In this document: in pieces, positions 19,306 to 24,898 of the stretch
Position numbering within the stretch: the first letter of the stretch is position 1
Layout: every line of letters begins with the position of its first letter
NCBI GenBank assembly: GCA_900197605.1
Contig: FZLQ01000007.1
Location: 1-34,493 of the forward strand
DNA: 34,493 nt
Direction: 5' to 3'
Source: Phyllobacteriaceae bacterium Water-Bin73
GTDB lineage: Bacteria > Pseudomonadota > Alphaproteobacteria > RS24
Notes under the pieces: generated by a model
The model's database searches: none
The model's input: the letters and a program-made list of their open reading frames with translations, nothing else
What the model was told of the DNA's origin: nothing
Made by a program: the position numbers and the translations under genes

Positions 19306-19346
19306 AAGCCCGACCCGTTTTCGCGAATGGGTCGGGCTTTTTATTT
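19306..19346 (+). terminator. Strong intrinsic terminator after the Bax inhibitor-1 gene
   Basis: An 11-bp perfect stem (AAGCCCGACCC at 19306-19316 pairing with 19329-19339) with a 12-nt loop is followed by TTTATTTT. On the other strand the A-rich flank gives a weaker T-run, so it may work for the convergent DUF2794 gene as well. Confidence 0.9.
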
Positions 19347-19349
19347 TCT

Positions 19350-19727
19350 CTAATCAACAAGCTTGAGTGATGTGCGGTCGAAAAAGCGCATTAAGGCGGG
19401 CAGGTCGTGGCCGCGGCGCAAAACCCGCCCGTCCATCGCATGCAGCACATATTGGCCTTGCTTGCGACGCATGGCCGGAATTTTATCAATGCGAAAGAGC
19501 GGCACTTCGCTGGCGCGGCGAAAAATAGAAAACCGCGCCGCGTCGCGGCCATCATTGATCGCATAATCGCGCCATATACCGGCAGCCACCATGCGGCCAT
19601 AGACATTGAGCAAATGACCCAGCTCGTCGCGCGTCCACATAATACGCTCGGGCGTGGCCTGGGCGGCGCGGCGTTCGAGCTCGAAAGCATTGCCGACAAT
19701 GACCAGAGACTTGCGTGATTTGCTCAT
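19350..19727 (-). CDS. DUF2794 protein
   Basis: A 125-residue soluble protein of the alphaproteobacterial DUF2794 family. Recognisable blocks are Arg-Asp-Glu-Leu-Gly-His-Leu-Leu-Asn-Val-Tyr-Gly-Arg-Met-Val-Ala, Trp-Arg-Asp-Tyr-Ala-Ile, Phe-Ser-Ile-Phe-Arg-Arg and a C-terminal Arg-Arg-Gly-His-Asp-Leu. The function is unknown. The frame is open up to 19832, but the ATG at 19727 gives the family length and a sensible N terminus (Met-Ser-Lys-Ser-Arg-Lys). It converges on the Bax inhibitor-1 gene and shares its terminator region. Confidence 0.85.
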   Translation of the reverse strand: MSKSRKSLVIVGNAFELERRAAQATPERIMWTRDELGHLLNVYGRMVAAGIWRDYAINDGRDAARFSIFRRASEVPLFRIDKIPAMRRKQGQYVLHAMDGRVLRRGHDLPALMRFFDRTSLKLVD

Positions 19728-19866
19728 AATGCATGGTGCCGCTTTGGCTGGCTGATTGCAAGTTTTGGCTGCGCGAAACGACTTTTCCGCCTGCCCCGAA
19801 ATTGCCCTAATTCGGTCTTTTTCTTGTCCCATTCATGGTGATGATGGAGGGTGCTTAAAGAGCCCC

Positions 19867-19920
19867 GCCCGACGCGCTGCCTTGTTCTCTCCTCCCATGA
19901 CTGGCGCGTCGGGCATTTTT
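19867..19920 (+). ncRNA. Terminator-like stem-loop with an anti-SD loop (candidate sRNA 3' end)
   Basis: A perfect 11-bp GC-rich stem (19867-19877 with 19904-19914) carries a 26-nt loop and is followed by ATTTTT. The loop contains CTCTCCTCCC (19887-19896), a C/U-rich anti-Shine-Dalgarno motif of the kind seen in loops of known alphaproteobacterial sRNAs. No gene upstream on this strand needs a terminator (DUF2794 runs the other way), so an independent small RNA is plausible. Eight loop bases (19887-19894) are exactly complementary to the SD of the small ORF at 19988. I see no clear promoter. Confidence 0.45.
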
Positions 19921-19929
19921 CTGCCACCG

Positions 19930-19960
19930 GTTTACCGGCATATAAAAGTTTACCGGCATA
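19930..19960. repeat. Pair of 13-bp direct repeats, 18-bp period
   Basis: GTTTACCGGCATA occurs at 19930-19942 and again at 19948-19960, separated by TAAAA. They lie 28 bp upstream of the small ORF and between the stem-loop and its SD. Tandem operator half-sites are possible; no regulator is known. Confidence 0.6.
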
Positions 19961-19987
19961 AAGCGGGCGCATATGAGGAGAGGTGAC

Positions 19988-20152
19988 ATGTCTGTTTTAG
20001 AGATAAATCAACCGCACCTGACGGGCGGACAAAAACACGCATTGCCAGCGCCGGTCGCTTCACCTAAATGTAGGGCCATTGGCTTGCGTCCCGCGCCAAG
20101 CGATTGGGCTTGCGCTGAAGGGCTTGCGTTAAAGGGCTGGGGGGCTCGTTGA
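19988..20152 (+). CDS. Small ORF (54 aa) upstream of the Gld-like ABC operon
   Basis: An ATG at 19988 with a strong SD (GAGGAGAGG, 19975-19983, 4 nt before the ATG) opens a 54-codon frame ending with TGA at 20150-20152. The product starts Met-Ser-Val-Leu-Glu-Ile-Asn-Gln-Pro and contains two cysteines; there is no membrane segment or motif I recognise. The stop is 10 nt before the ATG of the ABC ATPase, which itself lacks a clear SD. It could therefore be a real small protein, a leader peptide coupling translation into the operon, or chance. The SD is the main support; composition (Ala, Gly, Leu, Pro, Arg) is not distinctive. Confidence 0.4.
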   Translation: MSVLEINQPHLTGGQKHALPAPVASPKCRAIGLRPAPSDWACAEGLALKGWGAR

Positions 20153-20162
20153 GAATAATCAC

Positions 20163-21146
20163 ATGATTGAAGTCGATCATCTAGTCAAAAAATTTGGTGA
20201 TTTCACCGCCGTTGCCGATCTTTCTTTTCGGGTTGAGCGCGGTCAAGTGATGGGTTTTTTGGGGCCGAATGGCGCGGGCAAATCCACCACCATGAAAATG
20301 ATTACCGGTTTTTTGCGCCCGAGTTCGGGCACGGCGCGCATTATGGGCCTAGATATTTGCGACGACATGTTGGCGGCGCAACGCCATTTCGGCTATCTGC
20401 CCGAAGGCGCCCCGGCTTGGCCCGATATGACACCGCGCGCGTTTTTGCAATTCATCACGCGTATTCGCGGTCTCGATAAGGCGGCTGCGCGCGCCGCTGA
20501 GGGGCGCGCCATTGAGATGACAGAATTACACGGCGTGCTGGACCAGCCGATTGATACGCTGTCCAAAGGCTATCGCCGCCGCGTCGGGCTGGCGCAAGCG
20601 ATTGTGCACGACCCTGATGTGTTGGTGATGGATGAGCCGACCGACGGTCTTGACCCGAACCAAAAATTTCAAGTGCGCCGCGCCATTACCGATATGGCTG
20701 CCGATAAAGCGATTATTATTTCCACCCATATTTTAGAAGAAGTTGATGCGGTTTGCGCCGCCGCGATGATTATCGATCGCGGGCAAATTGTGGCTGAAGG
20801 CACGCCCTCTGAATTGGCGGCGCGCTCGCGGTATAGCGGCGCGGTGGCGTTGACATTGGAAACCGAAAAACTATCCGCCGCGCAAGCCATATTGGCCCAA
20901 ATCGCGCATGACAGCGCCGAAATTGTGACGCGGGGCGATGAAAGCACGCTGCATATTTTCGCCCAAAAGGGCAATGAGCCGGGCGCCTTGCTGGCCGATT
21001 TGCGCGCCCGTGTCGGCGAGGCCGGTTTGGCGCCGCGCGCGCTGGCATTGGAAACCGGTCGCTTGGATGATGTGTTTGGTGCCCTGACCGGCAAAGCCCG
21101 TCCTGCGCCGCCTATTTTTTCAGCCGAGAAAGAGACCGCCTCATGA
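20163..21146 (+). CDS. ABC transporter ATP-binding protein, GldA-like
   Basis: A 327-residue ABC-2-type ATPase. Walker A is Gly34-Pro-Asn-Gly-Ala-Gly-Lys-Ser-Thr42, the signature Leu-Ser-Lys-Gly-Tyr-Arg-Arg-Arg-Val-Gly-Leu-Ala-Gln (the degenerate Ser-Lys-Gly form common in GldA/NatA types), Walker B Val-Leu-Val-Met-Asp-Glu-Pro-Thr-Asp-Gly-Leu-Asp, and the switch His is in Ser-Thr-His-Ile-Leu. A C-terminal domain of about 100 residues follows. It is the first large gene of a four-gene operon with a GldF-like permease, a GldG-like protein and a DUF4340 protein. GldAFG is known from gliding Bacteroidetes, but this arrangement is also widespread in non-gliding proteobacteria, where its role is unknown. 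It overlaps the next gene by 4 nt. Confidence 0.92.
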   Translation: MIEVDHLVKKFGDFTAVADLSFRVERGQVMGFLGPNGAGKSTTMKMITGFLRPSSGTARIMGLDICDDMLAAQRHFGYLPEGAPAWPDMTPRAFLQFITRIRGLDKAAARAAEGRAIEMTELHGVLDQPIDTLSKGYRRRVGLAQAIVHDPDVLVMDEPTDGLDPNQKFQVRRAITDMAADKAIIISTHILEEVDAVCAAAMIIDRGQIVAEGTPSELAARSRYSGAVALTLETEKLSAAQAILAQIAHDSAEIVTRGDESTLHIFAQKGNEPGALLADLRARVGEAGLAPRALALETGRLDDVFGALTGKARPAPPIFSAEKETAS

Positions 21147-21886
21147 TGCGCGCTTTGCTGGCCATTACCGCGCGCGAATTTGGCGGTTATTTTGCAACGC
21201 CGCTGGCGTTTGTTTTCATCATTGTGTTTTTGCTGGCCAATGGTTTGGCGACATTTTATCTGGGCGCTTATTTCTCAATGGGCCAAGCCGACCTGACCAG
21301 CTTTTTCATGTTCCACCCCTGGCTTTATTTGTTTTTCCTACCGGCCATTTCCATGCGCCTTTGGGCCGAGGAGCGGCGCAATGGTTCGATTGAACTTTTG
21401 CTGACCCTGCCGGTGCCGCTCACCGCGGTGGTGATTGGCAAATATCTCGCGGCTTTGGCCTTTTCGGCTTTGGCACTGGCGCTGACATTTCCGATTTGGC
21501 TGACCGTGAATTTTCTCGGTGACCCCGATAATGGCGTCATTCTCGCCTCTTATTTGGGCTCGCTCATGCTGGCCGGTGGCTATCTCGCCATTGGCTCATG
21601 CCTGTCGGCATTGACCCGCAATCAGGTTATCGCTTTTGTGATTTCCGTGGTGGCGTGTTTTTTATTCACGGTTTCGGGCGCGCCTCTGGTGTTGGAAATT
21701 TTCGATGGCTGGGCACCGCAAGCGCTGATTGAGACATTGGCGACCTTTTCTTTATTGACGCATTTTCGCGCCATTACCGGTGGCGTGATTGATGCGCGCG
21801 ACATCATGTTTTTCGCTTCGCTGATCGGCGTGTTTTTAACCGCGACCGTGATTGTCGTTGATATGAAAAAAGCGGAAGGGGCGTAA
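21143..21886 (+). CDS. ABC-2 permease, GldF-like
   Basis: A 247-residue integral membrane protein with six hydrophobic segments. The N terminus Ala-Arg-Glu-Phe-Gly-Gly-Tyr-Phe-Ala-Thr-Pro-Leu-Ala-Phe is characteristic of GldF-type permeases. The Leu-Trp-Ala-Glu-Glu-Arg-Arg-Asn-Gly-Ser-Ile-Glu-Leu-Leu-Leu-Thr-Leu-Pro block is the ABC-2 coupling region. It pairs with the ATPase encoded upstream (ATG overlaps its stop) and with the GldG-like protein encoded 4 nt downstream. Substrate unknown. Confidence 0.92.
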   Translation: MMRALLAITAREFGGYFATPLAFVFIIVFLLANGLATFYLGAYFSMGQADLTSFFMFHPWLYLFFLPAISMRLWAEERRNGSIELLLTLPVPLTAVVIGKYLAALAFSALALALTFPIWLTVNFLGDPDNGVILASYLGSLMLAGGYLAIGSCLSALTRNQVIAFVISVVACFLFTVSGAPLVLEIFDGWAPQALIETLATFSLLTHFRAITGGVIDARDIMFFASLIGVFLTATVIVVDMKKAEGA

Positions 21887-21890
21887 GACC

Positions 21891-23873
21891 ATGCGCGCTG
21901 TGCTGAGCCTTCAATTTTTTGCTCGATTTGTCGCGCGGCTTTCCGGCGGCCTCTTGCGCCGCCCGCATGCGCTGGCGCTGATATTGCTCGGCGTGATTTT
22001 TGTCAGCCTTAATCTGTTTTCCAATTTGGCGCTCAGAAATGCCCGTCTTGATTTGACCGAGAACGGCTTGTTTACCCTCTCGCAAGGCACGCGCAATATT
22101 GTGGCGGCGCTTGATGAACCGATACGGCTTAAATTTTATTATTCGCAAGATATTGCCGCCAATCAGCCGGGCTTGCGGGTTGAGGCGCAGCGTGTGCGCG
22201 ACATGCTGGAAGAAATCACCATGGCAGCCAATGGCATGGTGCAATTGGATATTATTGACCCTGAGCCGTTTTCCGAAGCCGAGGACCAAGCCGTCGCGCA
22301 AGGACTGGTGGCGCGTCCGGTGGCTGAGGGCGAGGTGGTTTATTTCGGCCTGGTCGGCACGAATTTGGTCGATAGCGTTGAGATTATTCCTTATTTCGCC
22401 ACTGAACGGCAGCAATATTTGGAATATGATTTGGCGCGCATGCTGCATAATTTGGGGCGGCCTGAAAAGCCGGTGCTGGGTATTATTTCCAATCTGCCGC
22501 TGGATACCGGCGCGGGCGGCATTATGGCGGCAATGCGCGGCCAGTCGCAGCCCTTCCTGATTTACGCTGAATTGGCTGACCGCTTTGAGCTGGAATTTAT
22601 CGTCGCCGATACGGTGCGTATTCCGACCCGCATTGATGCTTTGCTGTTGGCGCATCCGCGCCCGTTAACCGATATTCAGGCTTATGCGATTGACCAATTT
22701 GTCATGCGCGGCGGTCGCGTGATTGCCTTTATTGACCCGCAATCCGAGGTCAGTCTGACCGCCGGGCCGAATGGCGAACCGCTGCGCGGCTATAGCGAAC
22801 AATCCGATTTGCCGCTTTTGATGCGCCAATGGGGGCTTGCTATGGCGGGGGATATGATTATCGCCGACCGCAAACGCGCCCAGCGTGTTGCCGCCGGTCG
22901 CGATGCCCGCCGCGCGCTGACGGATTATATTCTCTGGATGGGTCTGGGCCCGTCTGAAATGAACGCTGATGACCCCATCACCGGCAATATTGACCGGCTG
23001 AATATCGGCACGGCCGGTGCCTTGCGCCCGATAGACGGCGCGACAACCAGCTTCACGCCATTGGTCACCTCTTCTGACGAAGCCGGGCTGATGACCCGCG
23101 ATTATGTTTTAAGCGCGCCGACCCCCGATGCATTGCAGCGTCGTTTCGCCATTGGCGAAGCCCCCTTTACCATTGCCGCGCGGCTTTCCGGCCCGGTGGA
23201 AACGGCCTTTGCCGATGGCCCACCGGCGGCGGAAAACAGCAAGGGCGAGCGCGCCAAAGCCGCCGCGCATCAAACCGAAACGGCGGCGGCCAATATTGTT
23301 GTTTTCGCCGATAGCGATTTTTTTGATGACCGGTTTTGGGTGTCGGAGCAAAATTATTTAGGCCAGCGTTTTGGCGTGCCGATTGCGGATAATGGCAAGT
23401 TTCTGCTCAATGCAGTTGAAAATCTGATGGGGTCAAATGACTTAATCTCGCTGCGTGGTCGCGAAGAAGCGGCGCGGCCTTTCACGCGGATTGAGGATCT
23501 GCGCCGCGCGGCGGAAGCCGATTATCTGACGGAACAGCAAAATCTGGTGGCGCGCATTGAAGCGGCGCAGGCCGAGCTCGACCGTTTGGAACAAAGCGGT
23601 GCGCAATTGGCCGAGGCCGATGAAGCGGCCAGTGCCTATCGCGCTGAATTATTATCGGCGCGCAAAGCCCTGCGGCGTGTGCAAGGCAATTTGCGCCGCG
23701 ATATTGAAGCACTGGAAGGGCGTCTGACCTGGGCCAATATCATCATCATGCCGGTGCTTATTTCGGGCTTGGCTTTGGTGCTGGCCTGGCGACAAAGACG
23801 CCAAAGACTGGCCACGCAAAAAGCCGGTGGCTTGATTATTGACGATGACACAGCGCAAAAAGGAGCGGCCTGA
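21891..23873 (+). CDS. GldG-like ABC auxiliary protein
   Basis: A 660-residue membrane-anchored protein. One TM segment (about residues 29-50) is followed by Asp-Leu-Thr-Glu-Asn-Gly-Leu-Phe-Thr-Leu-Ser-Gln-Gly-Thr, the start signature of the GldG/IFT52-like extracytoplasmic domain. The large periplasmic region (about 55-530) contains a glutamine-amidotransferase-like fold segment (Val-Leu-Gly-Ile-Ile-Ser-Asn-Leu-Pro). A heptad-rich coiled coil (about 545-625) leads to a second TM (about 625-643) and a basic cytoplasmic tail. It probably binds the substrate or senses the envelope for the ABC complex. Its stop overlaps the DUF4340 start (TGATG). Confidence 0.88.
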   Translation: MRAVLSLQFFARFVARLSGGLLRRPHALALILLGVIFVSLNLFSNLALRNARLDLTENGLFTLSQGTRNIVAALDEPIRLKFYYSQDIAANQPGLRVEAQRVRDMLEEITMAANGMVQLDIIDPEPFSEAEDQAVAQGLVARPVAEGEVVYFGLVGTNLVDSVEIIPYFATERQQYLEYDLARMLHNLGRPEKPVLGIISNLPLDTGAGGIMAAMRGQSQPFLIYAELADRFELEFIVADTVRIPTRIDALLLAHPRPLTDIQAYAIDQFVMRGGRVIAFIDPQSEVSLTAGPNGEPLRGYSEQSDLPLLMRQWGLAMAGDMIIADRKRAQRVAAGRDARRALTDYILWMGLGPSEMNADDPITGNIDRLNIGTAGALRPIDGATTSFTPLVTSSDEAGLMTRDYVLSAPTPDALQRRFAIGEAPFTIAARLSGPVETAFADGPPAAENSKGERAKAAAHQTETAAANIVVFADSDFFDDRFWVSEQNYLGQRFGVPIADNGKFLLNAVENLMGSNDLISLRGREEAARPFTRIEDLRRAAEADYLTEQQNLVARIEAAQAELDRLEQSGAQLAEADEAASAYRAELLSARKALRRVQGNLRRDIEALEGRLTWANIIIMPVLISGLALVLAWRQRRQRLATQKAGGLIIDDDTAQKGAA

Positions 23874-24898
23874 TGGATATGCGTCGCTTGTTACGCCCGC
23901 TTGCTTTGGTCACGGCGGCCAGTCTGATTTTGGCGTTTACCGCGCTATTGGGCGAGCGCCGCGTTAATGCCGTGCCGCCGCCGCAAACCCTGTTGCCCGA
24001 ATATGCCGCCAGTTTGGCGCGCGCGCAAAAATTGGAAGTCACTCACGGCACCGGCATTTCCGGCACGCGCGGGCTGGTTATCAGCCGCGCGGCTGATGGC
24101 TGGGTGCTCGATGAGCGCTGGGGCTATCCGGCCAATGATGAATTGGTCAATGAGACATTATTGGCGCTGGCTGATTTGAAAGCGGTGGAGGCGCGTACCG
24201 CCAAAGCCGATTGGCATCGCGCTCTGGGGCTGGGTGTGCCTGAAAATCTGGGTGCGGCTGTGCGCTTTCGCGTGAGCGATGGCGCGGGCGTTGAAATGGC
24301 GTCCTTGCTATTGGGCAAAGAGCAGCAAAGCGAATCCGAGGCCAAGCAGCAAGTGCAAAATTATGGGCCTGAATTGCGCCAGTTTTATGTGCGTCGCGCC
24401 GATAGCGACCAAACATGGTTGGCGCGCGGACGCTTGCCACGCAATCGCGAACCGGCGGCGTGGATTGACCCGTCTTTGGCGCGCCATGCGCCCGAAAAAT
24501 TGCAACAGGTTCGCTTCGGCAAAGCCGAAGATAAGGGCGACGCCAAGTTCAAATTCATTCGCGTCGGCGAGGGCTGGTCATTGGCCGGCGCGCAAGATTG
24601 GCTGAGGCTTTTTGAAACCCTGCGCCCCGATGATGTGGGGCGCGCTGATGGCATTAATTTTGATACGGCGCGGCCATTTACGCTGAGCTATTCAGACGGC
24701 CTGTCCATCACTTATGAAAATGTCGGTGCAGCGACAGTTATTTGGAGCCGGATGAGCGCGCAAGCGGCGGCTGATGCAGATGCTGAGGTGGTCGCTTTGG
24801 CGGCACAAATCAATGCGCGCTTTTCCGGTTGGGCTTTGCGCTTTACGGCGGAACGCTCGCCCATTTTGCTGCCCGCCAAAAGAGACCTTACCCGCTAA
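23873..24898 (+). CDS. DUF4340 protein of the Gld-like ABC operon
   Basis: A 341-residue protein with one N-terminal hydrophobic segment (about residues 9-26; membrane anchor or signal) and a large extracytoplasmic region. The repeated beta-rich modules, including Arg-Ala-Leu-Gly-Leu at about residue 117 and Ala-Trp-Ile-Asp at about 200, are typical of DUF4340. Such proteins are regularly the last gene of GldAFG-like operons and probably form part of the same envelope complex. Function unknown. The start overlaps the gldG-like stop by one base. Confidence 0.82.
   Translation: MDMRRLLRPLALVTAASLILAFTALLGERRVNAVPPPQTLLPEYAASLARAQKLEVTHGTGISGTRGLVISRAADGWVLDERWGYPANDELVNETLLALADLKAVEARTAKADWHRALGLGVPENLGAAVRFRVSDGAGVEMASLLLGKEQQSESEAKQQVQNYGPELRQFYVRRADSDQTWLARGRLPRNREPAAWIDPSLARHAPEKLQQVRFGKAEDKGDAKFKFIRVGEGWSLAGAQDWLRLFETLRPDDVGRADGINFDTARPFTLSYSDGLSITYENVGAATVIWSRMSAQAAADADAEVVALAAQINARFSGWALRFTAERSPILLPAKRDLTR

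Follow-up and report, generated by a model that had tools for sequence, protein, structure and literature searches.

Genes and hairpin at the locus

The window, the whole 34,493-nucleotide stretch of DNA that was analyzed, contains a DUF2794 gene on the minus strand (19350..19729; Pfam PF10984, E 6.6e-33) and a Gld-like ABC operon on the plus strand (20163..24898) that encodes an ATPase, a GldF-like permease, a GldG-like protein and a DUF4340 protein. The operon was recognized by Pfam, with NCBIfam TIGR03518/TIGR03521 matches that fell below their cut-offs. The divergent DUF2794 gene is the best syntenic marker of the locus; its start was taken at ATG 19727-19729, as inferred from a CAT that is conserved in relatives. 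The plus-strand gene upstream is BI-1 (Bax-inhibitor-1), which has its own terminator at 19306-19339. This terminator is strong and its stem resembles that of the hairpin described below.

The region between DUF2794 and the ABC operon contains a plus-strand hairpin (19867..19914) in which GCCCGACGCGC (19867-19877) and GCGCGTCGGGC (19904-19914) form 11 perfect base pairs, to which the MFE fold adds a closing T-G pair as the twelfth, around a 26-nt loop (19878-19903). Its predicted folding energy is -23.6 kcal/mol and it is followed by the T-run ATTTTTCT (19915-19922, plus strand). The perfect 11-bp stem and T-run noted in an earlier, sequence-only reading of this DNA are thus confirmed. As that reading also stated, the loop bases CTCTCCTC (19887-19894) are the exact reverse complement of GAGGAGAG (19975-19982). 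On the evidence of sequence, RNAalifold and folding energy the structure is predicted to be both an anti-Shine-Dalgarno (anti-SD) hairpin and an intrinsic terminator, and the loop segment UCUCCUCCCAUGA (19888..19900, plus strand), with the core UCCUCC at 19890-19895, is the predicted anti-SD targeting site by virtue of its conservation in the genus and order. A small 5′ stem (GCT...AGC, 19853..19863, plus strand) of only 3-4 bp and with little covariation appeared in the RNAalifold consensus of 12 sequences. The T-run is the predicted 3′ end of a small RNA whose gene would span ~19792-19922, and DNA conservation stops there: with 19728-20160 as BLAST query, it ended at the T-run, at positions 192-196 of 433. 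A terminator-like hairpin is thus placed where no protein gene needs one, as it sits between divergent genes and BI-1 has its own terminator. Two copies of the direct repeat GTTTACCGGCATA, which is absent from relatives, adjoin the hairpin at 19929-19961.

Upstream of the hairpin, GYC triplets recur four times at 11-bp spacing (GCC 19793, GCC 19804, GTC 19815, GTC 19826); they occupy 19793..19828 on the plus strand and form a predicted ChvI-type response-regulator site, judged by periodicity, alignment and the Sinorhizobium meliloti consensus considered below. The element was seen in an ungapped alignment of 24 promoters, and lag analysis of 12 representatives gave an identity of 0.415 at lag 11 versus 0.271 expected (z = 7.0). 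A predicted -10 region, TGATGATG (19839..19846, plus strand), was assigned by its column position in alignment A5 and reads CCATATT or CCATAAA in relatives; the match to the consensus was weakest in the sub-clade of the window, and scanning for sigma-70 promoters returned nothing at the sRNA. The RNA probably starts at ~19852.

Searches with positions 19728-20160 against 61 genomes by BLAST matched the locus in its own genome and in 10 of 11 congeners, but in none of the 49 others, with a conserved block that extended from ~19792 to the T-run. The BLAST match in G010 fell elsewhere than the locus, which a covariance model did find in this genome. The model (R1, 12 sequences) recovered the locus in 12/12 genomes of the genus and also in other genera. 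By covariance model and direct reading of DUF2794/ABC loci, the sRNA locus was located in 21 of the 28 genomes of the order, comprising all members of g1 (12/12), g6 (3/3), g4 (5/5) and g2 (1/1), and was not found in the remaining seven, which are six genomes of g3 and G015 (g5). In g3 the ABC ATPase ortholog also is absent and DUF2794 has other neighbors. G006 was counted once as a genome despite two near-identical copies on contigs C7 and C17, one of them at a contig end, which probably reflect a strain mixture in the assembly. The one further weak R1 match in the genome of the window (L046, 21.8 bits) was considered as a paralog and proved false on reading; weak matches L039-L043, L045 and L047-L050 are without CTCCTCC and also were judged false.

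All 13 letters of UCUCCUCCCAUGA were identical in the 12 rows of alignment A1; in the G010 loop the last base differs. The UCCUCC core was invariant in the 21 members of the order that have the locus. RNAalifold analysis of 12 sequences revealed covariation in the stem, with pair 93/138 as C-G in nine sequences and U-A in three and pair 97/134 as GU, AU or GC, and members of g6, g4 and g2 have wholly different stem sequences around the same loop core. Stem and loop conservation in related genomes thus is strong by alignment, covariation and covariance model. In the three g6 genomes the first hairpin is followed by another whose loop is also C-rich (UCUCCUCC in G016 and UCCCCUCC in G019; L058, L067 and L059, ~2030-2110, in sense orientation). 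Overall, conservation, synteny, covariation and the conserved upstream element strongly support the proposal of the sequence-only reading that an independent anti-SD sRNA, here still a predicted one, ends at this hairpin.

Relatives across the class and BjrC174

A model built from the 21 sequences of the order produced weak matches in other families, the upstream regions of which matched as well. The RNAs of these families form hairpins whose loops are large and C-rich; one such RNA lies beside DUF2794. The upstream element was also modeled from sequence alone (R3, 24 sequences), which gave matches at E<=0.01 in 62 of the 386 class genomes; 31 genomes passed E<=1e-4, and 18 of the 31 lay outside the training set. 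Pattern scanning of named genomes yielded 28 matches: five were from other groups and lacked the hairpin, and 23 were alphaproteobacterial, mostly Parvibaculum and Rhodobiaceae together with Tepidicaulis marinus (one, L158, is titled only Proteobacteria). The element directly adjoins a divergent DUF2794 gene in 17 of the 23, and in 13 the other side is occupied by a full-length ATPase ortholog that is 57-62% identical over ~309 aa. BI-1 also is nearby in many, and the gene order matches that of the window.

DUF2794 was detected in 217 of the 386 class genomes. An independent check covered the divergent upstream side of 120 DUF2794 loci from 59 families, rather than all 217 genomes; these remained from 121 upstream regions after removal of L254 (31 bases), and include four that are cut by contig ends and in which the interval scanned may be misplaced (L186, L188, L191 and L196). 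Locus L145 was left out of the evidence. The loop motif GCCCCC..AGCCC occurred in sense orientation in 24 of the 120 loci, which represent 11 families, versus one locus in antisense, and hairpins with C-rich loops were present in 29 loci versus six with G-rich loops, which served as the strand control. The 24 loci had been selected on the loop, irrespective of promoter, and GYC-N8-GYC-N8-GYC lies upstream in 13 of them, compared to one in antisense and to a mean of 0.25 and a maximum of 3 in shuffles, and triplet spacings other than N8 gave 0-3. The predicted sRNA gene is widespread in Alphaproteobacteria, but not universal, as both the loop motif and the phased triplets are lacking in the majority of the 120 loci. 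Members of families f100, f101, f74, f2 and f110 have the same element and hairpins at other places, for example between aconitase and an ABC ATPase (L101, L102, L110), next to an O-methyltransferase gene (L099, L100, L111) and next to a spermidine synthase gene (L105, L106). These copies are read as a gene that may have been relocated or duplicated. The upstream side of DUF2794 in family f42 (L219, L228, L231) carries the Rfam serC leader instead.

When 16 DUF2794-side loci were scanned with Rfam, G368, an 8-Mb genome, matched BjrC174 (RF02355), a Bradyrhizobiaceae sRNA, at 175.5 bits exactly on the DUF2794-side RNA. Eleven further loci, from several families, had sub-threshold BjrC174 matches at this RNA. 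Across 32 loci, BjrC174 gave 12 matches at E<=5, every one of them on the DUF2794-side RNA. BjrC174 is described as an abundant sRNA of Bradyrhizobium japonicum with the strongest promoter among the validated starts without a recognized promoter (PMC4842269). Like the window RNA, it is divergent from DUF2794, forms a long GC-rich hairpin with a C-rich loop and has phased GYC triplets upstream; the GYC-N8-GYC phasing upstream of the hairpin is evident both at 19793-19828 in the window and in the triple of L192. The window RNA is shorter, its loop includes UCUCCUCCC (within UCUCCUCCCAUGA) whereas that of BjrC174 reads AGCCCCCAGCCCC, and its hairpin doubles as terminator whereas BjrC174 has a separate one. 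Neither the window RNA nor 10 other loci of the order matched the BjrC174 model even at E<=10. The window gene most likely is orthologous to BjrC174 by locus, promoter and architecture, without being a member by the Rfam criterion; as the model does not match the window RNA, the proposed orthology rests on locus and promoter. Full-length sub-threshold matches to CC3664 (RF01530) of Caulobacter, at 26-30 bits versus a cut-off of 60, were observed on the DUF2794-side RNA of f62 and f112. None of the CC3664 matches is significant and none is to the window; any relation would be tentative.

The phased element and its proposed regulator

The S. meliloti ChvI consensus, as cited in PMC9731502, consists of GCC direct repeats with the arrangement N-GCC-N8-GCC, and the spacing GCC-N8-GCC occurs upstream of the predicted sRNA start. 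The ChvG marker PF13756 was detected in 25 of the 28 genomes of the order, including that of the window. The same scan revealed only the kinase domain in G000, and in G010 an OmpR-type regulator (Response_reg/Trans_reg_C) is followed by a ChvG-like kinase whose best NCBIfam match was ChvG, below its cut-off. No phased GYC triple was present upstream of chvI in the chvIG loci that were read. As g3 has ChvG but is without the sRNA, the presence of ChvG-ChvI does not predict the RNA. From the sequence of the element we infer that ChvI may control the sRNA.

CtrA and PhoB sites also are 11-bp repeats, which lends some weight to the possibility that the regulator is another member of the OmpR family (CtrA, PhoB or other), as does the motif TTAA-N7-TTAA in G012 and G022. 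CtrA itself was rejected because TTAA-N7-TTAA is confined to these two genomes. The ChvI motif proposed for Caulobacter, TTGC-N3-GCAA, differs from the element at the locus and again would favor another regulator, but the constant feature is GYC at 11-bp spacing, which corresponds to the S. meliloti ChvI consensus (both as given in PMC9731502). A different OmpR-family protein thus is a genuine but distinctly less probable candidate than ChvI.

Whether the repeats belong to the sRNA at all also was considered, since they lie 60-100 bp from the start of DUF2794, the most constant neighbor, and might be an operator of this opposite-strand gene with the hairpin as a separate feature. In several families the repeats and C-rich hairpins occur together at sites not next to DUF2794, where they keep the same orientation and the same spacing to a CCATATT -10 region; an operator of DUF2794 therefore is improbable. 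The same association bears on whether the hairpin is a plain transcription terminator that halts read-through without any regulatory RNA. The stem and T-run would make a good intrinsic terminator, but BI-1 upstream already is terminated at 19306-19339, the loop is conserved more than the stem, and the conserved upstream element goes with the hairpin across the class even where the neighbors differ; a plain terminator therefore is very unlikely.

We consider it probable that the hairpin forms the 3′ terminus of a separate sRNA that acts in trans, is activated by ChvI, carries an anti-SD loop and is the local ortholog of a class-wide gene that includes BjrC174. The 11-bp-phased GYC repeats would be bound by a response regulator of the OmpR family, for which ChvI of the ChvG-ChvI envelope-stress system is the likeliest candidate. 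This binding would activate a plus-strand promoter that belongs to the sRNA itself, in the interval from the divergent DUF2794 gene to the Gld-like ABC operon, and yield an RNA of ~70 nt. Transcription would end at the hairpin, the 26-nt loop of which would remain single-stranded, and the segment UCUCCUCCC would pair with GGGAGGAG-type SDs of target mRNAs and block their translation by analogy with AbcR1/2. The gene would belong to a class-wide alphaproteobacterial sRNA that includes BjrC174 and whose loop outside the order reads AGCCCCCCAGCCCC.

There is a precedent for ChvI acting via an sRNA in ChvR of Caulobacter crescentus, which is described as switched on by ChvI-ChvG, Hfq-independent and repressing a TonB-dependent receptor (PMC6237742). 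The ChvR gene is upstream of recF, a different locus from that of the window sRNA. ChvG-ChvI is conserved across Alphaproteobacteria, yet ChvR, its known sRNA, is reported in this source to be restricted to C. crescentus. The system would gain a general RNA arm from an sRNA that is widely conserved, keeps to one locus and carries ChvI-type sites. The evidence leans somewhat, by comparison of loci and promoters, toward one sRNA gene that predates the divergence of many alphaproteobacterial families. Its place (BI-1, DUF2794, sRNA, ABC operon) and a promoter driven by ChvI would have been retained, and in the order its loop would have changed from AGCCCCCCAGCCCC to the canonical anti-SD UCUCCUCCC. 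If so, the gene would supply ChvG-ChvI with a shared RNA arm for envelope stress, BjrC174 and perhaps CC3664 would become a single Rfam family, and ChvI-type sites would offer an explanation for the strong BjrC174 promoter. It also would be an example of a targeting loop that changes while promoter and place stay fixed. The prediction is testable in Bradyrhizobium, Parvibaculum or Caulobacter. A literature search found no description of this locus and no co-mention of DUF2794 and an sRNA.

The predicted anti-SD loop and its possible partners

Other alphaproteobacterial sRNAs with anti-SD loops provide a functional parallel. The aSD1 motif of AbcR1/AbcR2 (alpha-r15), CUCCUCCC, is identical in the window loop and is reported to pair with ribosome-binding sites in S. 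meliloti and to repress there (PMC8844928). AbcR1 and AbcR2 have a different locus and promoter control (LsrB / RpoH1) and two aSD motifs, whereas the window RNA has one and showed no Rfam match to AbcR. NfeR1 (alpha-r14), the cuckoo RNAs and CcsR1-4 resemble the window RNA in presenting an anti-SD loop within a hairpin, but are described with three or more such hairpins, compared to one, CUCUCCUCCC, in the window; CcsR shares its transcript with a DUF1127 gene and is driven by an RpoHI/RpoHII promoter (PMC3927594, PMC8844928, PMC10253847). The promoter type predicted for the window sRNA differs. No DUF1127 gene is next to the window hairpin, which is flanked by DUF2794 and the ABC ATPase. The window RNA matched no Rfam model, those of cuckoo / CcsR / alpha-r14 included, even at E<=10. 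The comparison with cuckoo, CcsR and alpha-r14 RNAs made in the sequence-only reading thus is apt as to the likeness of the loop, but does not extend to kinship. That the window RNA is a diverged member of these families or of AbcR is highly improbable: the loop equals AbcR1/2 aSD1 at CUCCUCCC (PMC8844928) and resembles the cuckoo-type CCUCCUCCC, whereas the single anti-SD hairpin, the lack of a DUF1127 neighbor and of an Rfam match, and the correspondence of the locus to BjrC174 instead all point elsewhere.

Pairing of the loop with the downstream sequence was the second option raised in the sequence-only reading, by which a read-through transcript would hide its own SD, GAGGAGAG (19975..19982, plus strand), ahead of a 54-codon ORF (ATG 19988). 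A match of at least 8 nt between the loop and the following 100 nt is expected by chance in 1.9% of Markov shuffles and 1.3% of 3402 stretches of the window, so that the match is unusual but not compelling. Complementarity reached 8 nt only in G000, G008 and G011, the three closest of 21 relatives, and was 4-7 nt in the others, in a count in which the G022 row was scored at a wrong TCCTCC site. Stem and loop are strongly conserved but the SD complement is not, and the latter was judged incidental. The ORF was rejected as a gene: it is not kept among relatives (G008 is without the ATG and the region varies by indels) and a Pfam search gave no match. A promoter-like element of the ABC operon, TTGCCA-N17-TAAATG (20042..20070, plus strand), lies inside this ORF, between the proposed SD and the first gene of the operon, and recurs in the genus and other genera; every genus with the locus has the form TTGCNN-N17-TANNNN in the interval from the terminator to the ABC ATPase. 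A cis-acting leader of this kind is scarcely tenable, as the 8-nt complement in the window and a loop-SD duplex of -17.5 kcal/mol are countered by the poor conservation of both pairing and ORF, by the location of the operon promoter-like element downstream of the SD and by the termination of the hairpin in a T-run. With pairing and ORF not conserved and a promoter-like element downstream of the terminator, the sRNA gene and the ABC operon would most simply be separate transcription units.

Sites for the proposed trans-acting sRNA were sought as GGGAGGAG-N3-10-ATG in the 12 genomes of the genus, which gave 19 occurrences versus 17 in the reversed control. As GGGAGGAG is not enriched before ATG, no target of the sRNA is claimed. 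Fourteen of the 19 sites precede ORFs of at least 130 aa, including an MFS transporter in four genomes and an SDR enzyme in three. In G001, G003, G004 and G010 (L083, L086, L088 and L095) the MFS transporter, a candidate target, has the SD UUUGGGAGGAG, which is complementary to the loop over 9 nt.
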